Shown here: piece by piece, positions 8,790 through 27,542 of the stretch | How the letters are laid out: each line of letters opens with the position of its first letter | How positions within the stretch are numbered: position 1 is the stretch's first letter | Virus record (IMG/VR): IMGVR_UViG_3300031885_000078 | Span: 1-29,817 of that record | Direction: 5' to 3' (one strand) | DNA from: a virus | DNA: 29,817 nt | The notes under the pieces: generated by a model | The model's database searches: none | What the model was told of the DNA's origin: nothing | The model's input: the letters and a program-made list of their open reading frames with translations, nothing else | Program-made: the position numbers and the translations under genes

Positions 8790-9461
8790 ATGGCTATCAA
8801 CTTGAAGCGCAGTTCCGCGCTTTCTATGAGCGGCGTAAAACTGCTCGTTTACGGGCAAGCTGGCGCTGGCAAAACCTTGCTCATCCCCACATTACCGGCG
8901 CCCATTGTCCTGAGCGCTGAAGGCGGCTTGCTTTCAATTGCTGGGGCCGATGTGCCTTACATCGAGATCGCCAGCATGGGCGACTTGATGGAGGCTTACA
9001 AATGGCTCTCAGAAAGCGCCGAAGCAGCTCAGTTTCAATCGGTGGCGCTGGACAGCATCAGCGAGGTGGCTGAGGTGGTGCTGAATGCTGAAAAGAAAGC
9101 CAGCAAAGACCCGCGCCAAGCATACGGCGCGATGCAAGAACAGATGGCCGACATCATTCGGGCCTTCCGCGACCTGCCGGGTCGTCACGTTTACATGAGC
9201 GCGAAGCTGGAGAAGACACAGGACGAAATGGGCCGCGTGCTGTATTCGCCCAGCATGCCGGGCAACAAAACCGGCCAGCAATTGCCCTACTTCTTTGACG
9301 AGGTGCTGGCACTGCGTGTGGCACGCGATGCCGAAGGCAATACCCAGCGGGCTTTGATGTGCGATTCTGACGGTCTGTGGCTTGCAAAAGATCGCAGCGG
9401 CAAGCTAGAAACGTGGGAAGCGCCTGACTTGGGCGCAATCATTGCAAAGATTGGAGGCTGA
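8790..9461 (+). CDS. Sak4-type RecA-like ATPase (AAA_24, single-strand annealing)
   Basis: 223 residues. Walker A GQAGAGKT at 22-29 after the strand VKLLVYG, and a Walker-B-like SVALDSIS with Asp88. The pattern LLIPTLPAPIVLSAEGG.LSI and the C-terminal PYFFDEVLALRV.. with GLWLAKDRSG are typical of the phage AAA_24 family that includes the Sak4 recombinases. Expected role: ATP-binding recombination/annealing mediator acting with the ssDNA-binding protein two genes downstream. GGAGAACCAA precedes the ATG. The stop is followed one base later by the next ATG, so translation is coupled. Confidence 0.88.
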   Translation: MAINLKRSSALSMSGVKLLVYGQAGAGKTLLIPTLPAPIVLSAEGGLLSIAGADVPYIEIASMGDLMEAYKWLSESAEAAQFQSVALDSISEVAEVVLNAEKKASKDPRQAYGAMQEQMADIIRAFRDLPGRHVYMSAKLEKTQDEMGRVLYSPSMPGNKTGQQLPYFFDEVLALRVARDAEGNTQRALMCDSDGLWLAKDRSGKLETWEAPDLGAIIAKIGG

Positions 9462-9462
9462 A

Positions 9463-9849
9463 ATGCAAGAGCTTGAGCAACTGAGCCAAGAATGGATCAT
9501 GGCCAAAGAAGCGGAGAAGCGCGCAGTCGCAAAGCGCCGTGAGGCAGAAGACAAGCTGACAGCACTGCTAGGCGTCAAGCCAACACTAGAAGGCACTGAG
9601 AGTCATCTCGTGCCTGGCTTGAGCATCAAGATCGTGGGCCGACTTGATCGCAAAGTCGATGCAGACAAAGCGCAGGAGATCGCTGCCGAGGCTGGTTTGA
9701 ATGCTTACCTTTCAACGCTTTTCCGGTGGAAACCTGAAATCAACATGTCTGCCTGGAAATCCACCGATTCACAAATCACCGAGCTTTTTTCGCACGCGGT
9801 CACGGTCATGCCAGGCCGTCCGTCTTACACCATCACCATCAAGGAGTGA
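9463..9849 (+). CDS. Unknown protein between the Sak4-type ATPase and the DUF669 protein
   Basis: 128 residues. Residues 1-45 form a Lys/Glu/Ala-rich coiled coil (EKRAVAKRREAEDKL). The rest is a compact alpha/beta domain with GLSIKIVGRLDRKVDADKAQEIA, LFRWKPEINMSAWK and a C-terminal PSYTITIKE. The ATG at 9463 is chosen for the ideal GGAGG spacing (TTGGAGGCTGAA). Genes of this size and shape recur between AAA_24 and DUF669 genes in proteobacterial phages, so a part in recombination or replication is likely, but no activity can be read from it. Confidence 0.8.
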   Translation: MQELEQLSQEWIMAKEAEKRAVAKRREAEDKLTALLGVKPTLEGTESHLVPGLSIKIVGRLDRKVDADKAQEIAAEAGLNAYLSTLFRWKPEINMSAWKSTDSQITELFSHAVTVMPGRPSYTITIKE

Positions 9850-9854
9850 ACATC

Positions 9855-10349
9855 ATGGCGTTTCTTTCACAATCTTTCGACGTAGCCGACCTGCCCCAAT
9901 CATCCGGTGGCAATTTTGAGCCACTGCCCGCGGGATGGTACAGCGTCACTATCGCGGGTGCCGAACTGAAAAACACAAAGGCAGGAAATGGCCAGTTCAT
10001 CGCAGTTCGCTATGACGTGACCGGGCCGACTCACCAGGGCCGCGTGGTTTTTGGCAATCTGAACATTCAGAACCCGAACCCCAAGGCCGAGGAAATTGGG
10101 CGCCAGCAACTTGGCGAACTGATGCGCGCTATTGGCCTTGCCAAAGTTACCGACACCGATCAACTGATCGGCGGCAATCTGCAAATCAAGCTTGACATCA
10201 AGCGCGATGAGCAGTACGGCGACAAGAACGAGGTGCGCGGCTTCAAGGCCGTGAGCGGTGGCGCATTGCCTAGCGTCGCGCCAACTGCTATGCCTATGCA
10301 ATCCATGGCTGCACCTGCAAAGGCTGCGCCGCCGTGGGCTAAGAAGTAA
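9855..10349 (+). CDS. DUF669 protein, probable ssDNA-binding protein
   Basis: 164 residues. The pattern FEPLPAGWYSVTIAGAELKNTKAG followed by YDVTGPTHQGRVVFGNLNIQNPNPKAEEIGRQQLGEL fits the phage DUF669 family, an OB-fold-like group usually coded beside Sak-type recombinases and thought to bind single-stranded DNA. The C-terminal tail is low-complexity Ala/Pro/Met ending PPWAKK and lacks the acidic tip of bacterial SSB. The start at 9855 is chosen because AAGGAG lies 8 bases upstream; a GTG at 9846 overlapping the previous stop is a weaker choice. A terminator hairpin follows the gene. Confidence 0.85.
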   Translation: MAFLSQSFDVADLPQSSGGNFEPLPAGWYSVTIAGAELKNTKAGNGQFIAVRYDVTGPTHQGRVVFGNLNIQNPNPKAEEIGRQQLGELMRAIGLAKVTDTDQLIGGNLQIKLDIKRDEQYGDKNEVRGFKAVSGGALPSVAPTAMPMQSMAAPAKAAPPWAKK

Positions 10350-10360
10350 TCAATCAACCC

Positions 10361-10382
10361 GCCCGGCTTGTGCCGGGCTTTT
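10361..10382 (+). terminator. Intrinsic terminator after the DUF669 gene
   Basis: A perfect 7-bp stem GCCCGGC/GCCGGGC with a TTGT loop, followed by TTTT. The T-run is short, so it may be partial, letting some transcription reach the helicase-methyltransferase gene. Confidence 0.6.
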
Positions 10383-10394
10383 GAGGTTTACACG

Positions 10395-12596
10395 ATGAAT
10401 TCATACGATTCATTTGTCGCACAGAAAAGACGCGCAGAAGTGGCAACTGGACACGCTCCAGGTGATTTGAATGAATACCTGAAGCCATTTCAGCATGCCG
10501 TTGTGTCATGGGCGGTGCGCCGTGGGCGTGCTGCCGTATTTGCTGACACTGGCCTTGGAAAGACAATCATGCAATTGGCATGGGCCAATGAAGTGCAATC
10601 GCATACTGGTGGAAAGGTGCTCATTTTGGCCCCGTTGGCTGTATCAGAGCAGACGATTGAAGAAGGCGCAAAATTTGGCATTGAAGTGCAGCGCGTTCCG
10701 TTGGGTCAAGATATACCGAGCACTGGAGTATGGATCACCAACTACGAGCGCATGGATGCCATTGATTTTGCTGAATTGCATGGCATTGTTTTGGATGAAT
10801 CAAGCATTCTCAAGGCGCATGATGGAAAAACACGATCACGCATCATTGAGGCATCGCAGGGTGTTCCGTATCGTCTGAGTTGCACAGCCACACCCAGCCC
10901 GAATGATTTTGAGGAGCTTGGCAATCAGTGCGAGTTCCTTGGCGTGATGACTCGAACCGAGATGCTTGCAACGTACTTCGTGAACGACACCGGAGACACG
11001 GGCACATGGCGACTCAAAGGATGGGGCGCTGCGAAGTTCTGGGAATGGATGGGCACTTGGGCTGTTGTGATCCGTAATCCTTCCGATATTGGATTTGATG
11101 GCTCTGAATACGACTTGCCAGCACCAGAATACATTGAGCACGTTGTTCAAACAGAAGTGCAATCCATTGATGATTTATTTGGACGTCCTGCCATGGGATT
11201 GGCAGAGCGCAGGAAAGCACAGCGCGACAGCATTGATGCTCGATGCAAAGCATTGGCTGATGTCGTAAACGCTCAAAGCAATGAGCCGTGGTTGATTTGG
11301 TGTCACTTGAACGACGAGGCAGAATTTCTGCAAAGCATGATTCCTGGCAGTGTCAATGTGCAAGGCTCAGATAGTGCAGAAGTCAAAACAAAAGGCATGA
11401 TGGATTTCACGCATGGGAAATTGCGTGTTTTGATTTCCAAGCCCAAGATTTGCGGCTTTGGCATGAATTGGCAGCACTGCGCTCGCATGGCATTTGTCGG
11501 TCTTGATGATTCATTCGAGAAGTTCTATCAAGCGGTGCGCCGATGCTATCGCTTTGGACAAAAGCGCAATGTGCAAGTGCATCTATTCACCGCTGAGAAT
11601 GAAGGCCAGATTTTGGCCAATCTCAAACGCAAAGAGACTCAGCACCATGAAATGAGTGCAAACATGATCGAACATATGAAAGACATCATGAATCAAGAAT
11701 TGGCCGGGCAAGTAAACATTGTGGACGAATACAAAGAAGACACATACCACGGGGAAGGTTTCACGGTGCATCTCGGTGATTGCGTGAAATGGACGCAGCG
11801 CATGGCTAACGATAGCATTGACTATTCTGTTTTCTCTCCGCCATTTGCTGATCTGTTTGTGTATTCAAACAGCGATCATGATATGGGCAATTGCAAAGAC
11901 GATGCAGAGTTTGTAGCGCAACTGAAATTCCTGATTTCTGAATTGTTCCGTGTCTTGAAGCCTGGACGCAATGTGTCATTCCATTGCATGAATCTACCGA
12001 CAACCAAGATGCGCCAAGGCTTCATTGGGTTGCGTGACTTTCGAGGCGATCTGATTCGCGCATTTCAGGATGCTGGCTTTATCTATCACTCCGAAGTGTG
12101 CATTTGGAAAGATCCAGTTGTGGCAATGCAGCGTACCAAGGCGCTTGGATTGCTGCATAAAACGATCCGAGAAAACAGCACTATGAGCCGCATGGGATTG
12201 CCGGACTATGTTGTCACGATGCGTAAGCCTGGTGATTGCGAAGAGCGTGTTACGCATGGAGATGATCTACCAGTGATGATGTGGCAGAAATATGCCAGCC
12301 CAATTTGGGATGACATCAACCAAGGGCGCACCTTGAACAAGCTGCCAGCACGTGATGAGAACGACGAAAAGCATATGTGTCCACTGCAACTTGATGTTAT
12401 TGAACGATGCATTCACTTGTGGACTAACAAAAATGATCTTGTATTCAGTCCGTTCACTGGTATCGGATCAGAAGGCTATACAGCAGTCAAGATGGGCCGG
12501 CGCTTTATCGGGACTGAATTGAAGCCGCAATACTGGGATTTGGCATGTCAAAACATACAAGATGCGCGCAACGATCAGCGTGGATTGTTTGAGTAA
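10395..12596 (+). CDS. SNF2-type helicase fused to DNA methyltransferase
   Basis: 733 residues in two parts. Residues ~25-400 are an SF2/SNF2 ATPase: motif I DTGLGKT (51-57), motif II LDESS (133-137), motif III TATPSPND (164-171), and motifs V-VI GFGMNWQHC and QAVRRCYRFGQKR (~354-391). Residues ~450-730 are an amino-methyltransferase: HLGDC (459-463), motif IV SPPF (481-484), then AdoMet-binding motif I FSPFTGIGS (684-692) and GTELKPQYW. This beta-type motif order with SPP[FYW] is more usual in N4-cytosine than N6-adenine enzymes. No nuclease domain is seen. It probably translocates on DNA and methylates it, for protection from host restriction or regulation. Base composition is lower in GC than the neighbouring DUF669 gene, hinting at separate acquisition. 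Confidence 0.9.
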   Translation: MNSYDSFVAQKRRAEVATGHAPGDLNEYLKPFQHAVVSWAVRRGRAAVFADTGLGKTIMQLAWANEVQSHTGGKVLILAPLAVSEQTIEEGAKFGIEVQRVPLGQDIPSTGVWITNYERMDAIDFAELHGIVLDESSILKAHDGKTRSRIIEASQGVPYRLSCTATPSPNDFEELGNQCEFLGVMTRTEMLATYFVNDTGDTGTWRLKGWGAAKFWEWMGTWAVVIRNPSDIGFDGSEYDLPAPEYIEHVVQTEVQSIDDLFGRPAMGLAERRKAQRDSIDARCKALADVVNAQSNEPWLIWCHLNDEAEFLQSMIPGSVNVQGSDSAEVKTKGMMDFTHGKLRVLISKPKICGFGMNWQHCARMAFVGLDDSFEKFYQAVRRCYRFGQKRNVQVHLFTAENEGQILANLKRKETQHHEMSANMIEHMKDIMNQELAGQVNIVDEYKEDTYHGEGFTVHLGDCVKWTQRMANDSIDYSVFSPPFADLFVYSNSDHDMGNCKDDAEFVAQLKFLISELFRVLKPGRNVSFHCMNLPTTKMRQGFIGLRDFRGDLIRAFQDAGFIYHSEVCIWKDPVVAMQRTKALGLLHKTIRENSTMSRMGLPDYVVTMRKPGDCEERVTHGDDLPVMMWQKYASPIWDDINQGRTLNKLPARDENDEKHMCPLQLDVIERCIHLWTNKNDLVFSPFTGIGSEGYTAVKMGRRFIGTELKPQYWDLACQNIQDARNDQRGLFE

Positions 12597-12601
12597 ACAT
12601 A

Positions 12602-12907
12602 ATGGCCCGCACAAAATACGCAGCATCACTATTTGGCAGGCCAACACGCAAAGAGAAGGCCCTGGATCGTGAAGAATACATTTCACGCGCCAGGGAATTC
12701 GCCAAGCGCGGCCAAGATTTGCCCCAAACCAAACTGCTTGATTTAGAGGTTCACAGCATCAAGTCAGCAGCGAGACAGCGCGAGAAACTGCGCGCATACA
12801 TCAAAGACAACCTGAGCAATGCGGCCCTAGCCGCGCAATACGGTGTTCACGTGCGAACGATTGAAAAGATTTTGCAGCACGAAACATGGAGCCATGTTCT
12901 TCTATGA
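12602..12907 (+). CDS. HTH protein of unknown role
   Basis: 101 residues, basic. The N-terminal ~60 residues are charged and helical; residues ~70-97 (NAALAAQYGVHVRTIEKILQHETWSH) form a clear helix-turn-helix. It lies 5 bases after the methyltransferase fusion, and its stop overlaps the exonuclease start as ATGA. It may be a regulator or a DNA-targeting partner for either neighbour; the sequence does not say which. Confidence 0.82.
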   Translation: MARTKYAASLFGRPTRKEKALDREEYISRAREFAKRGQDLPQTKLLDLEVHSIKSAARQREKLRAYIKDNLSNAALAAQYGVHVRTIEKILQHETWSHVLL

Positions 12908-13938
12908 CAGCAATCCCAGAAGCGGCGCATTCAATCGCCGCCATGATCGACAAACATCACGTCAGCAAAACCGAGCAGCCGCGCCAGCATCTCGGAGCAA
13001 GCATCCTCGGACACCCATGTGATCGGTGGCTCTGGCTTTCCTTTCGATGGGCTGCGCGTGAGGAATTCCCCGGCCGCATCTTGCGAGTGTTCCGGCGTGG
13101 GCACCATGAAGAAGGCTGGATCGTGAGCGACCTGCGCGCCATCGGAATTGACATCCGAGACACGCAAGGCGAACAAAGCCGTGTGGACTTTGGCGCGCAT
13201 GTTGGCGGAAGCTTGGATGGAATCATTCATTCCGGCGTGCCAGAAGCGCCCAAGAAAAAGCACGTTGCAGAGTTCAAAACGCACTCGAAAAAGAGCTTTG
13301 ATGAAGTCGAATCGCAAGGTGTCGAGAAGGCCAAGCCGATGCACTGGGCACAGATGCAAGCCTACATGCACGGCACTGGCATCGATCGGGCGCTGTATGT
13401 TGCAGTCTGCAAAGACGACGACCGGATCTACACCGAACGCGTGAAATACAACAAAGAAGCGGCCGAGGGCTTGATTGCCCGTGGACATCGCATTACACTA
13501 AGCGACAGACAGCCGGAACCGCTTTCGACGAACCCTAGCTGGTATCAATGCAAGTTTTGCGCAGCGCATGAGATGTGCCATGGTGGCAAGCCGACTAAGC
13601 ATGTCAACTGCCGCACCTGTGCTCATAGTACGCCTCGGGCGGATAGCACCTGGCACTGCGCAAAGTGGGATGCGGAGATTCCATTCGAGGCTCAGATTCA
13701 AGGTTGCGAGTCGCATGTGCTGCACCCGGATATGGTGCCTTGGAAGTTAGACACCGAGGCATCAAGCATGGATGAGGCTGTTTGGATTATTGACGGCAAG
13801 CCAGTTCGAAACGGCGAGCCAGATGCGTTTGTTTTCGGTAGCCGTGAACTGATCGCCAACCCTTCCGCCTGCGCGGGTGGCGAGCAAGTATTGATGGATA
13901 TGCGGGCGCAATTTAAGACTGCGAGGATAGTTGGATGA
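12904..13938 (+). CDS. Cas4/RecB-like PD-(D/E)XK exonuclease with Fe-S cysteines and extra Cys4 module
   Basis: 344 residues. Nuclease motifs in order: RGHHEEGW (His68/69 region), GGSLDGII (Asp105), VAEFKTH (Glu123, Lys125), and QMQAYM (Gln-x3-Tyr near 150-154). Cys39 (GHPCDRW) with Cys216, Cys219 and Cys225 (YQCKFCAAHEMC) matches the four-cysteine iron-sulfur arrangement of Cas4 and AddB-type nucleases. A second set, Cys236, Cys239, Cys252 and Cys268 (NCRTCAH..WHCAKW..GCESH), looks like a zinc finger added after it. Probable role: resection of DNA ends to feed the Sak4/DUF669 annealing pair. The start at 12904 overlaps the HTH gene stop. Confidence 0.88.
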   Translation: MTAIPEAAHSIAAMIDKHHVSKTEQPRQHLGASILGHPCDRWLWLSFRWAAREEFPGRILRVFRRGHHEEGWIVSDLRAIGIDIRDTQGEQSRVDFGAHVGGSLDGIIHSGVPEAPKKKHVAEFKTHSKKSFDEVESQGVEKAKPMHWAQMQAYMHGTGIDRALYVAVCKDDDRIYTERVKYNKEAAEGLIARGHRITLSDRQPEPLSTNPSWYQCKFCAAHEMCHGGKPTKHVNCRTCAHSTPRADSTWHCAKWDAEIPFEAQIQGCESHVLHPDMVPWKLDTEASSMDEAVWIIDGKPVRNGEPDAFVFGSRELIANPSACAGGEQVLMDMRAQFKTARIVG

Positions 13939-14884: not shown

Positions 14885-15096
14885 AAACCACCATCCTAGC
14901 AGACTACAAAGCAAAAACGTCAACAGGATCGCGCATTCACGTGGCGCACAACGATCTGCCTGTACAAGTGCATCAAATGATCGTCTGGATGCTAGACCAT
15001 CCTCAGCTGGCGCTTGGGATGGTGCCGCGTTGGAATGAACTGCAACAGGAGCAAAAGGTTTTTGCAGGATCGAAAGTGAACAAAAATGCTGCGTGA
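14881..15096 (+). CDS. Unknown 71-residue protein
   Basis: Starts MKTTILADYKAKTSTGSRIH and ends QKVFAGSKVNKNAA. Mixed alpha/beta, with PVQVHQMIVWMLDHP and MVPRWNELQQEQ. No motif is recognised. Its ATG overlaps the previous stop and its tail overlaps the SF2 helicase start by 11 bases, so it is firmly part of the coupled early operon. A helicase accessory role is possible from position only. Confidence 0.7.
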   Translation: MKTTILADYKAKTSTGSRIHVAHNDLPVQVHQMIVWMLDHPQLALGMVPRWNELQQEQKVFAGSKVNKNAA

Positions 15097-16690
15097 CTAC
15101 CAACAGCGCACAATTGACCAGCTTTATTATTGGTTTGAAGCTGGCAATGCTGGCAATCCTTGCCTAGTGCTGCCAACTGGAGCAGGGAAAAGCCACATCG
15201 TGGCCGCACTATGCAAAGATGCGGTGCAGACATGGCCAGAGACTCGCATTCTGATGTTGACTCATGTGAAGGAGTTGATTGAGCAAAATGCTGAGAAGAT
15301 GCGCCATCATTGGCCAGATGCACCGCTGGGAATCTACAGCGCCAGCGTAGGCCGCAAAGACCTGGGCGAACCGATAACATTCGCAGGCATTCAATCGGTG
15401 CGCAAGAAAGCGCAGCAAATAGGCCACATTGACCTGGTGTTGATTGACGAATGCCACCTAGTCAATCACAAAGACGAAGGCGGCTACCGTGGCTTGCTGG
15501 CCGACCTGAAGGCAATCAATCCGGCTTTGCGCGTGGTAGGTCTGACAGCCACGCCTTACCGCTTGGGCCACGGCTACATCACCGACAAGCCCGCCATCTT
15601 TGATGCGCTCATTGATCCCGTGAGAATCGAGGAATTGATATTCAAAGGCTACCTGGCCACACTGCGAAGCAAAGTCACGCAAACCAATCTGGACATCACT
15701 GGCGTGAAGAAGCGAGGCGGAGAATACATTGAGGCCGAACTGCAAGCGGCTGTGAACAAAGCCGACAAAAACGCCAAAGTGGTCAGCGAAGTGATTGCAC
15801 TGGCAGGCGAGCGCAAGGCGTGGCTTTTCTTTTGCGCTGGCGTGGCTCACTCTGAGGCCATTGCAACCGAACTAAACGCGCAAGGCATCACCGCAGCATC
15901 TATTACCGGGGAAACTCCGAAGGCCGAGCGCGAGCGCCTGATTGAAGAATTCAAGGCTGGCAAGATCCGCGCATTGACAAATGCGAATGTGCTAACAACG
16001 GGCTTTGATTATCCTGACATTGACCTAATCGCAATGCTGCGCCCAACAATGAGCGCCAGCCTATACATGCAGATGGCAGGGCGAGGATTGCGACCAAAGA
16101 GCCATATAGATCATTGCTTGGTGCTGGACTTCGCTGGCGTGGTGGCAACGCATGGCCCGATCACGGCAGTGCAGCCGCCAAAGAAAGCTGGCGAAGGCAA
16201 CGGAGAGGCTCCGGTCAAAGTGTGCGACTCGTGCGGAGAGCTTGTGCATCTAGCTGCGCGTCAGTGCCCGGCCTGCGGAGCCGAATTCCCAGAGCCTGAG
16301 CGCAAGCCGCTCAAGCTATGCGCTGATGACATCATGGGGCTTGAGGGCATCGAAATGCCAGTGCGCGCCTGGTGGTGGAAAAAACACACGAGCCGGGTAA
16401 GCGGCAAAGAAATGCTGGCAGTGACGTATTACCCTGATGGTCTATCCGATCAAGCCGTGACGGAATACTTGCCCATCTTGCATGAAGGCTACGCTGGACA
16501 CAAAGCACTCATGCAACTACTGACGATGGCCAGGCACGCAAATGCCGACATTGATACGTCAAAAGATGCTTGGTTTGCCTCTAGCTTGGTTCTGTCTCTG
16601 AATGAAAGCAAAGCCCCTGAGATGGTGAAGTACAAGCGTGACGGTAAGTTTTTCAGAGTGATGGAGAGGAGATGGAATGAGACATCCTGA
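15086..16690 (+). CDS. SF2 DEAD/DEAH-box helicase with zinc ribbon
   Basis: 534 residues. Motif I PTGAGKS (30-36), motif II DECH (121-124), motif III TATP (154-157), motif V NVLTTGFDYPDID (~301-313) and motif VI QMAGRGLRP (329-337). A Cys4 zinc ribbon follows at Cys380, Cys383, Cys394 and Cys397. The C-terminal ~130 residues (VRAWWWKKHTSRVSGKEML..VTYYPDGLSDQAVTEYL) form an accessory domain common in phage helicases of this type. It probably remodels DNA in replication or recombination. It is a second, distinct SF2 enzyme beside the SNF2-methyltransferase fusion. Confidence 0.93.
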   Translation: MLRDYQQRTIDQLYYWFEAGNAGNPCLVLPTGAGKSHIVAALCKDAVQTWPETRILMLTHVKELIEQNAEKMRHHWPDAPLGIYSASVGRKDLGEPITFAGIQSVRKKAQQIGHIDLVLIDECHLVNHKDEGGYRGLLADLKAINPALRVVGLTATPYRLGHGYITDKPAIFDALIDPVRIEELIFKGYLATLRSKVTQTNLDITGVKKRGGEYIEAELQAAVNKADKNAKVVSEVIALAGERKAWLFFCAGVAHSEAIATELNAQGITAASITGETPKAERERLIEEFKAGKIRALTNANVLTTGFDYPDIDLIAMLRPTMSASLYMQMAGRGLRPKSHIDHCLVLDFAGVVATHGPITAVQPPKKAGEGNGEAPVKVCDSCGELVHLAARQCPACGAEFPEPERKPLKLCADDIMGLEGIEMPVRAWWWKKHTSRVSGKEMLAVTYYPDGLSDQAVTEYLPILHEGYAGHKALMQLLTMARHANADIDTSKDAWFASSLVLSLNESKAPEMVKYKRDGKFFRVMERRWNETS

Positions 16691-23507: not shown

Positions 23508-25625
23508 TCAATGATATTTTGGAGAGCCTTGCAAGGCTTTGTCGATTTCTTTCTGAAAAGCTCGCTTGGCTGCCATTTCAGAAACGCCGCGACCAGCAAC
23601 AGCGCCAACCATAGCGCCAACTGGTCCAGCAATAGCGCCCAGTCCAGCTCCTGCACTTTCCATAATCGGAGCTTTTGCACCAAGGTTTTTAAGCGCAGCG
23701 CCAGCTCTGCCAGTTAGATTTTGCGTTTGCGTTGCAGTGCCACTTGGGTTGTAATCAATTTTCTTGAGAATATGCGCACCTGCTTGAATCGTACGCAATT
23801 TATCTGCATTTTCTGGGCCAAAAATGGAATCTAATTTTTCTTTATATTGACGCACAGCTGCATCAAAAGATTTTGGATTATGTGCCCATTGGAATTGATC
23901 GCTCAAATTGTTTTTGAAAATATCATCAAGAATTGCACCTTGAATCTCTTGTTTTGCTAACGCTGCTGTTTGACGCAGTTCAGAAGTTGGCATGTTATCT
24001 AGCACATTCATGATGTGTTCAAACTGCTTAAAATTGGATGCAGCTTGATTTGCCATGTAACCTGGCAATTTTTCATGCGAGATTGCGCGATTGATTCCAC
24101 CTGGGCCAGATACATCAAGAATCTTTGCTAGTGAGTCTGGCTCCTCAAAGATTTGATTATATTGTCTGCGGGCTTGTCGCGCATTTTCATATACTTGTTT
24201 ACCAAGCACTTGTGTAACATCTTCATCCAAAGCATCTTTAATTGATCTTACTGCAAATGCGTTTTTCCTATCCCATAGAGGAGTCATAAATTGCTTGACG
24301 CCTTCTGCTTGTGCAGCAGTCATAGGAATGATATTGCCATCAGAATCAATAAGACCTTGCTCTTTCATGTAAGAACGTAATCCTCTACGCAACTGACTAG
24401 CTTCGCTAGTAGCAAAGTTGCTATTTTTGTTCAATGCTTCCTGTAAACGATTGAATTGAATGCCTCCAGATTGCGATGCAATCTCATCGGATTTTTTGTA
24501 TAGATTACTGATTTGTTGCGAATACCATGCCTCATACGACTCAAGTGGAGCAGCAATAGTTGATCCTCTAGCCGCAGGAGCTTTTTTGAGTTCAGTTCCA
24601 ATATCGCTGGCAACTTGCTGAGCGTATTGGCCAAGCTTTTCTGTTTCCAAGTCAAATTGAGCGCGCATGCGTTCTCCACCCTCAAGCTTGGAGATGGCAG
24701 TTTCTCTGCCAGCTTGCCACTCATCGCCGCGCACGGCACCAGTGCGCATTTCACCCTCTTTGAATCCAAGAGCTTCCAAAACACTGCGCCTGTCTTGTGT
24801 GATTTTTGGTGAAAGGCCTCCAGCAGCAGGTTCTGCAGAAAGTGCAACGCGCTTTACTTCTGGCATCTTTGGCAATGGAGAAACAGTGCCAGCTTGTTGT
24901 GCAGCCGCTTCTTGCGCCTGCATTCTTTGCGCTAGTGGCTGAAGTACAGGCGCTTGTTCCATTTGCTGTGCAGCCTGCACTGCTGGAGGAATCTCGGCTC
25001 TTGCAGCCGCTTGAGCCGCTTGTTGCCGCGCCGTTTGCCTAGCTACTATGGCTGTTTTTCCTGCTTGCGCAACTTTCCCAAGTGCGCCGCCAGTGGCAAT
25101 ATCAGCGCCAATTTGAGCAACTGTTGCAGATCCTGGCAGTCCTGCTTCTGCCAACTTCCCACCGACATATTGGCCTGGCATGCCCAGAAGTTCTCCAACT
25201 TTTCCAACTGCTCCGACAATGGCTTGACCTGTTTGTCCTCTAGGTTGATAACTCATCAATTGTTGAGTTTCCTGAACAGCTTGCGCTGCCAATTCTGGAT
25301 TTTGCGTGCGAGCCAATTCAAACAGACCACGTAAACCTGCAGGAATAGACGAAAGTAATCCAGTTCCTAGAGCAGTACCAGCCTCAAAAGGAGCGGCTGC
25401 TTCATAAGCTGCTTGCTCTAGCATGGAACGTTCAGAAGCCGCTGTAGTTGGCGCAGGTTGTTGAGTGGTCTGTGCCGCCACTGCGGCCGGAGCTTCAAGC
25501 GCAGCAGTTCCACCACCAGCGCGAATTTTTGCGACTCTTGCTTTCAAATCTGGAGAATCAGGCGCAATATCATCAGGAATGTTGTTGATCGTAATTCCGT
25601 CTTTGGTAGTGATGGAGTATGGCAT
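23508..25625 (-). CDS. Large ejection protein (P22 gp16 position)
   Basis: 705 residues (P22 gp16 is 609). The N-terminus MPYSITTKDGITINNIPDDI is a short beta domain often found at the start of phage virion proteins. Residues ~45-260 are Ala/Gln-rich with hydrophobic Gly/Ala stretches; the middle is a long helical region (KLEGGERMRAQFDLETEKLG and similar). Near the C-terminus a Gly/Ala membrane-like stretch (AGAGLGAIAGPVGAMVGAVAGRGV) precedes a basic tail. It has the features of a DNA-ejection protein that enters the cell envelope. Third in the gp7-gp20-gp16 order, directly before the tailspike. Position is stronger evidence than sequence. Confidence 0.75.
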   Translation of the reverse strand: MPYSITTKDGITINNIPDDIAPDSPDLKARVAKIRAGGGTAALEAPAAVAAQTTQQPAPTTAASERSMLEQAAYEAAAPFEAGTALGTGLLSSIPAGLRGLFELARTQNPELAAQAVQETQQLMSYQPRGQTGQAIVGAVGKVGELLGMPGQYVGGKLAEAGLPGSATVAQIGADIATGGALGKVAQAGKTAIVARQTARQQAAQAAARAEIPPAVQAAQQMEQAPVLQPLAQRMQAQEAAAQQAGTVSPLPKMPEVKRVALSAEPAAGGLSPKITQDRRSVLEALGFKEGEMRTGAVRGDEWQAGRETAISKLEGGERMRAQFDLETEKLGQYAQQVASDIGTELKKAPAARGSTIAAPLESYEAWYSQQISNLYKKSDEIASQSGGIQFNRLQEALNKNSNFATSEASQLRRGLRSYMKEQGLIDSDGNIIPMTAAQAEGVKQFMTPLWDRKNAFAVRSIKDALDEDVTQVLGKQVYENARQARRQYNQIFEEPDSLAKILDVSGPGGINRAISHEKLPGYMANQAASNFKQFEHIMNVLDNMPTSELRQTAALAKQEIQGAILDDIFKNNLSDQFQWAHNPKSFDAAVRQYKEKLDSIFGPENADKLRTIQAGAHILKKIDYNPSGTATQTQNLTGRAGAALKNLGAKAPIMESAGAGLGAIAGPVGAMVGAVAGRGVSEMAAKRAFQKEIDKALQGSPKYH

Positions 25626-25627
25626 TT

Positions 25628-26881
25628 TTAATAATCCACCTTGATATTTTTAGTCACACCAAACACATTTTCAGGATTAAGATTGTAATTTTTTACGACA
25701 GCACCTAAATCTTGCTTTTCTTTTTCCGCTTTATTTTGAGCAGATTCAAGATATTTTTTCGCCAAATCCACATATTCTTTTCTTTGTGCAGGATTCAAAA
25801 ATTGCCCATTTTTTGCTTTTTCAAGTTTATTTTGCAACTGAATATAAAATCCTCCAGTATCACGTGCTGTAGCAAATTCTGTTTCACGCACCACTGATCC
25901 AGGATCAAGCATCTTCATAAATCCAGTAATCAATGCAATATCTCCTGGACCACTTGACGCTGATGCAGATTCTTTTAATGTATTAAATGTACCCTGCAAT
26001 TCACCATATACCTTGCTTCGGCCTTGCCATTCTTTGCGTATCTTTTCTTCTTGTGCAAATTTCCTTTCTTGATCAACTCCACCAGAAGTTTTGAATGACT
26101 CCAATACAAGTGCAGCCTGTTGAGTTTCAATGCCAAGTTTTCTTGTTTCAGCCAATACTTTATTTTTATTTGCTTGTGACAAACCAAGTTCAGCAGCAGC
26201 TTTGTCAAGAGCTGCCAATTTTTCTTTTCTTGCAAATTCAGCTTTTACAGCTGCCTTTGATTGCTCAATCTCAGCCTTCCCAGCATCAGCCGCAGCCTTG
26301 CGCTCCGAAATCGGAGCAGAGCGTTGCTTTAGCACTGTTTCATTTAATTTGCCAAAACGTTCAGGATCAATTGCATTCATGCCAATTCCAGCTTGGCCCA
26401 TCAATACATTTTGACCTTCTGGTGTGTCCAGCATTTTTAACTGCGCTTCAATAGCTGATGCTTTATCTTTCTCTCCAGCGTTTGTAGCCGCTGACAGTTG
26501 GTTAGAAAGAGCGTTTTTTGCTGTTTGTATGCCAGCAGGAGTTCCAAGTGCAATTCCACCAAATACTGGAGCCATGTTGCTAAATGCTGTGTCTTTACGT
26601 GCCGTATTCATAGCACCTATACCAGCAGTTAGAGCCTTTTCATTGGATGGATCAACTAGCAGAGCTTGTTGATAGTCCTCAGTCTTTGCAGTGCCAGCGG
26701 CAATTTTGCTCATGAAACCTTGCATGAACTCTTGTTTTTTCTGTGCAGCCGCAGCATTAGCCTGCGCCATAGCCATATCTTGCTCACGCTTACGCAAAGC
26801 ATCAACCATCTGGATGCCTTGCAGGAAAGATTGCTGCGGGCTTGCAATTTCGCCAATGGTGTAATCGTATGGTGCTGGCAT
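25628..26881 (-). CDS. Ejection protein (P22 gp20 position), AT-rich
   Basis: 417 residues (P22 gp20 is 471). Mostly helical and Ala/Gln/Lys-rich with long coiled-coil (SKAAVKAEFARKEKLAALDK). The later part carries ALITGFMKMLDPGSVVRETEF and NGQFLNPAQRKEYVDLAKKY, a pattern I recognise from virion proteins of many podoviruses. The start at 26881 is chosen for GCGGAGGCATCTAAC; a longer frame upstream would run through the previous gene. Base composition is strikingly AT-rich: 19 G/C of 60 in 25681-25740, against 36 of 60 in a terL sample (4801-4860). Confidence 0.78.
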   Translation of the reverse strand: MPAPYDYTIGEIASPQQSFLQGIQMVDALRKREQDMAMAQANAAAAQKKQEFMQGFMSKIAAGTAKTEDYQQALLVDPSNEKALTAGIGAMNTARKDTAFSNMAPVFGGIALGTPAGIQTAKNALSNQLSAATNAGEKDKASAIEAQLKMLDTPEGQNVLMGQAGIGMNAIDPERFGKLNETVLKQRSAPISERKAAADAGKAEIEQSKAAVKAEFARKEKLAALDKAAAELGLSQANKNKVLAETRKLGIETQQAALVLESFKTSGGVDQERKFAQEEKIRKEWQGRSKVYGELQGTFNTLKESASASSGPGDIALITGFMKMLDPGSVVRETEFATARDTGGFYIQLQNKLEKAKNGQFLNPAQRKEYVDLAKKYLESAQNKAEKEKQDLGAVVKNYNLNPENVFGVTKNIKVDY

Positions 26882-26882
26882 G

Positions 26883-27542
26883 TTAGATGCCTCCGCTAAT
26901 GAGCAAATTAAAACCACCGCCACCAAACGCGCTTCCAGCACCTTGCCCAAGCGCATTGATCATTTCCAGCTTGGCGCGGTTTTGTCCCACAATTCCACCA
27001 GCCCGAGCTGCGCCCATTTGGCCCAACAGATCAGAAATTCCACGTCCTGTTTGCATGCCAGCCGATCCAACTCCAGCAGCGCTTTGTTGTCCAAGCGTAG
27101 TCATGCCACCAAGCCTCGAGTATTGGTCTTGAATTGCTTGTGAAAGCATCTGCGGCCTGAACTGAGCCATAGCGCCTTGCATATTGCCACCACGTAGCCC
27201 GCCGGTAGCCGAAGCGTTTTGCAGCATTGCGTTTTCGCCTTGCTGAATCATAGATTGAAAGCCAGGTTGATTCTCAATCGCTGAAATTGCTGCTTGTTGC
27301 GCTTCTGGGCCTTCAAGACCTAGCAGGGCTTGCTGTTGCTTCAGTGCTGGCAAGCCGGCTTGAGTGTATGGCTCAAGCAAGCGGCGCATCTCATCAAACT
27401 GACGGCGCTGTTCATCAATCCCCATCTGTGAGGCTTGAACTTGAGCGCTAGAGGCTTGGCTCGCTGCTTTGCGCTTTTGCTCTGCGCCTATCAAATTTAA
27501 ACCAACCCCGGCAATAGCACCACCAAATACGGGATTAGGCAT
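26883..27542 (-). CDS. DNA transfer/ejection protein (P22 gp7 position)
   Basis: 219 residues (P22 gp7 is 229). A Gly-rich hydrophobic start (VFGGAIAGVGLNLIGA), then a helix (SQMGIDEQRRQFDEMRRLLE), PYTQAGLPALKQQQALLGL, NQPGFQSMIQQGENAMLQ and ASATGGLRGGNMQGAMAQF; this series is characteristic of phage DNA transfer proteins. The C-terminus is Gly-rich. The ATG at 27542 follows AAGGAGTTTGATC and overlaps the upstream stop. It should be packed in the head and ejected with DNA. Confidence 0.82.
   Translation of the reverse strand: MPNPVFGGAIAGVGLNLIGAEQKRKAASQASSAQVQASQMGIDEQRRQFDEMRRLLEPYTQAGLPALKQQQALLGLEGPEAQQAAISAIENQPGFQSMIQQGENAMLQNASATGGLRGGNMQGAMAQFRPQMLSQAIQDQYSRLGGMTTLGQQSAAGVGSAGMQTGRGISDLLGQMGAARAGGIVGQNRAKLEMINALGQGAGSAFGGGGFNLLISGGI

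Follow-up and report, generated by a model that had tools for sequence, protein, structure and literature searches.

In Type ISP and Type III restriction-modification enzymes, a motor and a methylase act together and a nuclease is included. A 2017 survey (PMC5512222) likewise reports joint action of motor and methylase for Type III, introduces the 'methylase-helicase dyad' of phages, and states that coupling of SNF2 ATPases to adenine methylases is widespread in phages and plasmids. In the same survey, DarB of phage P1, a polyvalent dyad, combines a methylase with an SNF2 ATPase and is proposed to serve self-protection; proteins of the DarB type have a gamma-class NPP(Y/F) motif, a methylase N-terminal to the motor and an LPD36 domain, and are virion head proteins. 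An actinophage methylase family with an intein is, according to PMC9957025, patchy in distribution and moves horizontally, and PMC11855218 describes Pacc40 gp60, which consists of a helicase domain followed by a methylase domain and shares its genomic context with a different methylase. These three papers bear on the kind of protein studied here, and our literature search found no report of activity, target base or motif for an SNF2-methylase fusion. The system of PMC11705971 was set aside, since it describes a different helicase-methylase-ATPase system, and a Rhizobium methylome table gives 4mC motifs, none of which could be tied to a homologue of the fusion.

Here we analyze such a fusion gene from a freshwater phage. 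The window, meaning the whole stretch that was analyzed, comprises the 29,817 nucleotides of IMG/VR record IMGVR_UViG_3300031885_000078.

Domain organization of the fusion protein

The fusion gene lies on the plus strand at 10395-12596 and encodes 733 aa. The frame may start at ATG 10395 or at an alternative TTG at 10368, which gives a 742-aa frame, and ends with the stop codon at 12594-12596; GAGG, read directly in the sequence at 10383-10386, precedes the ATG, and aligned relatives start near it. Three Pfam families, SNF2-rel_dom (PF00176), Helicase_C (PF00271) and N6_N4_Mtase (PF01555, 59.8 bits against a cut-off of 26.7), match above their curated cut-offs. The motor half covers residues 1-440 (10395-11714, plus strand), as delimited by Pfam, conservation and a fold match to INO80/ISWI motors. 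Its motifs, in ATG-based numbering, are Walker A (DTGLGKT, residues 51-57, 10545-10565), the DESS box (LDESS, 133-137, 10791-10805), motif III (TATPSP, 164-169, 10884-10901), motif V (11454-11474) and motif VI (QAVRRCYRFGQ, 379-389, 11529-11561). The methyltransferase half covers residues 441-733 (11715-12593, plus strand), based on Pfam, phmmer similarity to TTHA0409 and a fold match, and contains SPPF (481-484, 11835-11846), the motif X region HMCPLQ (12372-12389) and motif I (FSPFTGIGSEG, 684-694, with FTGIG at 687-691; 12444-12476). Motif IV (SPPF) precedes motif I, and the methylase is thus of the beta order.

Conservation and structure agree with this assignment. Among 73 close relatives, the window included, the motifs are invariant at all but a few positions (T57, A380, Y385 and T688) and SPPF is fully invariant; the catalytic motifs are also kept in 45 diverse members. 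A structure predicted from 45 sequences reached a mean pLDDT of 83.6 and a pTM of 0.69, the latter too low for the relative placement of the two halves to be trusted. Within it, residues 22-433 match the INO80 motor (Z 32.0, rmsd 3.4, 372 aligned) and residues 455-728 match the TTHA0409 methylase (Z 26.5, rmsd 2.1, 222 aligned). The first half is therefore placed among the SNF2 ATPases by its two Pfam families, signature motifs and INO80 fold, and the second among beta-class amino-methyltransferases by motif order, the AdoMet-site FxGxG, PF01555 and the TTHA0409 fold. The original prediction of an SNF2 motor joined to a beta-order methylase, without a nuclease, is borne out by Pfam, motif order, conservation and fold matches, and every motif it quoted is present in the ORF. 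It had named loss of AdoMet-binding residues among the findings that would count against it; that check is applied here in part, and the motif residues are present and conserved in a predicted domain that fits a solved methylase fold.

These data also bear on the notion that the gene is a decayed or inactive leftover. Its patchy presence and slightly different base composition would suit such a fate, but the frame is full-length and the motifs are invariant or nearly so in the aligned relatives and kept in the diverse ones, which makes decay hardly credible.

The protein can be set apart from several known systems. It has the motor N-terminal and an SPPF methylase C-terminal, so domain order and motif class exclude it from the DarB type. 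A nuclease belongs to the Type ISP and Type III enzymes, whereas Pfam found no nuclease family in the 733 aa; a nuclease-bearing restriction enzyme is rejected on this ground, although a partner protein supplying that activity is still conceivable. The DISARM DrmD profile gave 17.9 bits against a cut-off of 950, and the weak, partial matches to ZorD, DpdE, BrxHII and DrmD are read as reflecting motor similarity shared across SF2/SNF2 proteins. Absence of a family from the VIA-align list was given no weight as evidence.

The SPPF motif points to N4-cytosine methyltransferases. In a phmmer comparison, the nearest solved sequences to the methylase half are mixed, namely a putative methylase and MboIIA, an adenine enzyme. 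SPPF slightly favors N4-cytosine as the predicted target base, and N6-adenine is possible.

Distribution of the fusion and its two groups

The fusion belongs to an already catalogued kind of phage protein that is common in phage databases. Positions 272-919 of the 986-position profile of PHROG family phrog_16 align to residues 37-738 of the 742-aa frame, covering both domains with E=2.6e-73, far beyond chance. Matches occur in 329 of 50,697 phage records, and in 305 of these they cover 80% of the query or more. Relatives are also encoded in at least 599 IMG/VR stretches, and a scan of 84,980 species genomes yielded 287 candidate stretches, of which 226 encode a relative and 80 loci were kept. 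A search for the same domain fusion across phages, as originally proposed, therefore finds it in hundreds of them, and public annotations already use 'DNA helicase/methylase' for such genes. The family name of phrog_16, 'DNA helicase', mentions the helicase alone, yet its profile spans both halves. The same profile also matches a stand-alone protein of the window at 15086-16690 (plus strand), a second SF2 helicase of the ResIII type with a zinc-ribbon-like stretch.

Relatives fall into two groups. Group A includes the window protein, and group B includes actinophage genes annotated as 'DNA helicase/methylase', which likewise encode an SNF2 motor followed by a methylase in one chain, occupy a similar slot, and are patchy and horizontally transferred. 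Group B differs from group A in its identity to the window protein (about 30-34%), in having SIPF rather than SPPF, in a longer segment before motif X and in forming a separate clade. In a helicase tree of 109 rows, a branch marked 100* separates the ten group B rows from all others, and the window protein lies outside the group B clade. The actinophage family of PMC9957025 is probably group B, judging from phage cluster, gene position and a likely intein in phage Job42.

The motor and methylase halves travel together as a unit that is repeatedly fused or split. All 80 species-genome loci have both halves, of the group A type; 45 have them in one frame and 35 are split or partial, some of which may be assembly frameshifts or errors. 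Helicase and methylase distances in 99 group A rows are strongly correlated (Mantel r 0.82; none of 2000 permutations as high), and the helicase tree requires 14 switches between the fused and the split state, at least 8 of them forced by well-supported branches. In EBPR podovirus 1 (L082:2569-3483), the methylase is annotated at only 203 aa and an opposite-strand ORF overlaps its start; the true methylase is probably longer and either frameshifted or wrongly annotated.

An exchangeable cassette in one slot

The fusion gene is a clean, accessory and exchangeable cassette. In contig L100, the flanking proteins are 96-98% identical to those of the window, and the slot holds a group B fusion only about 34% identical to the window protein over the motor. 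Nucleotide homology between the two, at 92% identity, ends at 10387, which lies 8 bases ahead of the ATG, and picks up again with 94% identity at the stop codon (12594), so that the replaced segment is 10388-12593 (plus strand). The left border of the slot is a DUF669 single-strand DNA-binding-type protein (9846-10349, plus strand; Pfam, PHROG) and on its right side lies a Cas4-domain exonuclease (12886-13938, plus strand; phrog_1990, E=1.7e-104), with a putative HTH protein of 101 aa in between (12602-12907, plus strand; a weak Pfam match, 98% identical in L100). A GC-rich hairpin (GCCCGGC-TTGT-GCCGGGC, then TTTT; 10361-10382, plus strand), read in the sequence just upstream of the GAGG and ATG, is also found beside the group B allele in L100; it is only terminator-like, and the terminator scan did not report it.

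Similar events are seen elsewhere. Between L108, which carries group A, and L106 and L111, which have no such gene, there is a clean 2.2-kb presence/absence difference in adjoining DNA that is about 93-94% identical. Flavobacterium phages FCV-11 and FCOV-F56 show an A/B exchange between flanks that are about 97% identical, and Mycobacterium phages Emma and Job42 show a less clean one, in which the 3' border lies about 0.2 kb beyond the Emma gene. To survey the slot, 79 loci were newly fetched via the flanking exonuclease, and 71 of them had the SSB and exonuclease genes in order. The slot lacked such a gene in 65 (gap below 500 bp) and held group A in one, group B in three and something else in two, fractions that are not a population estimate because the 79 loci rank with the most similar members of a set of 529 exonuclease relatives. 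In the two other cases (L150:2402-4726 and L155:3564-6007), ParB-like and DUF3440/PAPS-reductase genes take the place of the SNF2-methylase, which suggests that the slot may be a general site for DNA-marking or conflict cassettes.

A separate origin of the gene had been proposed from its lower GC content. The counts given were exact (27 of 60 in 11401-11460 and 36 of 60 in 10081-10140), and over its full length the gene has 48.2% GC (GC3 0.50) against 52.1% for the rest of the window. Near neighbors have 51-57%, and values as low as 42% occur among the tail-side genes of the window; GC content is accordingly too weak as proof of transfer and serves as a hint only. Cassette replacement and presence/absence support a separate origin far better. 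Elsewhere in the window, two large ORFs at 23508-26956 (minus strand) have a much lower GC3 (about 0.30); one, of 705 aa, has no PHROG match, and the other, of 442 aa, matches a PHROG of unknown function.

Genomic neighborhood

Upstream of the slot, the window encodes a Sak4-like ssDNA annealing/recombination ATPase (8790-9461, plus strand; Pfam, PHROG). Among 130 neighbor ORFs scanned at viral loci, the commonest are recombination exonuclease, SSB, primosomal and replication-initiation proteins, while C5 methylases and DnaB, DUF1376, polymerase and VapE families lead among 140 neighbor ORFs at the genome loci. No restriction-enzyme family occurs among the 25 of 46 neighbor families listed for the genome loci. 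In Pseudomonas phage YMC11/07/P54_PAE_BP (L087:35-4752), a second DNA methyltransferase gene, 2.1 kb in length, comes immediately after a group B fusion gene.

The suggestion of a replication-coupled marker thus fits in terms of location, with recombination, SSB and replication-initiation genes as neighbors. The main rival to the reading favored below is built on this setting: the motor would remodel forks or displace proteins for Sak4, SSB and the exonuclease, methylation would mark replicated DNA or limit re-replication, and protection would be secondary. The Sak4, SSB and Cas4 exonuclease genes of the window, the replication-initiation, primosomal, recombination and DnaB/VapE genes elsewhere, and a methylase core well conserved across phyla are all in keeping with it. 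However, the 65 of 71 relatives that have the same flanking SSB and exonuclease but no gene in the slot indicate that the fusion is not a fixed part of the machinery, and the whole gene can be exchanged for a homologue of about 34% identity. We therefore consider this role unlikely, though it is to be taken seriously.

The same neighborhood could be read as a restriction or superinfection-exclusion device, in which the fusion, with the adjacent exonuclease or HTH protein, attacks unmarked rival DNA in a Type ISP- or DISARM-like manner. Restriction systems do contain motor-methylase pairs according to PMC5512222, and a Cas4-type nuclease is encoded 0.3 kb downstream. Yet the exonuclease is present in all 65 loci whose slot has no methylase, and the DrmD, ZorD and DpdE matches are weak and partial, so such a device is very unlikely.

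Conservation and the recognition segment

In sequence comparisons, conservation is usually higher in the methylase than in the motor. In 74 of 75 viral group A loci, for which peptide patterns in both halves were used, the methylase resembles the query more closely than the motor does, and the same holds for 79 of 80 group B loci compared with their own query. For genome loci the figure is 69 of 77, which is skewed in favor of conserved methylases, since both peptide patterns of that scan lay in this half; three of 80 genome loci and five of 80 viral loci had been dropped for short or missing matches. In 12 annotated records, out of 18 retrieved, the methylase is the more alike half in all four fused and in three of eight split cases, and the less alike half in the remaining five split ones.

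In beta-class enzymes, the recognition domain is usually located between motifs VIII and X. In 45 diverse members, this segment has a mean conservation of 0.63, close to the 0.58 averaged over the motor, and no hypervariable recognition segment was seen in the methylase. The segment before motif X has a median length of 57 aa in group A (n=144) and 132 aa in group B (n=87). For motif IV, 176 of 180 group A members have SPPF, while SIPF is found in 77 of the 87 members of group B, the remainder being missed by the pattern; at the group B loci (L259-L338), SIPF departs from the usual S/D/N-PP-Y/F. Such a recognition segment suggests that the target is single and fixed, and not adapted to each host.

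Orphan methylases can regulate. A fixed recognition region, together with the presence of the gene in prophage-like regions, would be expected of a methylase that marks a few phage or host sites to switch expression or lysogeny, with the motor aiding the site search. No regulator partner is common to the neighbor families listed, and sparse regulatory marks need no motor; a regulatory role is consequently quite unlikely.

Proposed role

We infer that the fusion is an accessory, motor-assisted self-modification methylase of a podovirus-like phage, acting around replication and mainly protective, and give this reading, drawn from sequence and a structural model, a probability of about 0.55. The SNF2 half would track along double-stranded phage DNA, driven by ATP, and carry the methyltransferase, which would flip a base out and methylate its amino group. 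If methylation takes place as new DNA is made, progeny DNA may resist host restriction. Since the recognition region is nearly the same from host to host, the mark would probably be a fixed, frequent motif not matched to the restriction enzyme of each host, and groups A and B could be alternative marks exchanged in one slot.

A protective or anti-restriction function fits the patchy, exchangeable distribution of the gene. Against it stands the near-constant recognition region, unlike that of classic host-specific anti-restriction methylases and, if confirmed across many phyla, unusual for an anti-restriction methylase; the steady location in replication and recombination modules fits a replication role as well. 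In a comparison of restriction-site avoidance across group A (81 sources), group B (80 loci) and empty slots (64 loci), and then in nine lineage-matched group A carriers, none of the 4-base palindromes stood out clearly or convincingly; host and redundancy confound this comparison.

A more speculative form of the protective reading is that the enzyme paints DNA. ATP-driven tracking and a short fixed recognition segment might permit processive marking at a short motif of very high frequency, or with hardly any selection of sequence, and hence protect broadly in hosts as different as archaea and Bacteroidota. We consider this unlikely; if true, A, B and the ParB/PAPS-reductase occupants would be interchangeable DNA-marking modules of one slot.

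Near-identical phage pairs that differ in the cassette (A, B or none), such as Emma, with a split group A pair, and Job42, with group B, form a natural experiment in which the role is directly testable; the Mycobacterium host of these two is a standard one in the laboratory. In Job42, a likely intein splits the group B methylase of gp69 (L086:4986-8498) just before the conserved CPLQ, and one record of this phage labels gp69 'anaerobic ribonucleoside reductase large subunit'.
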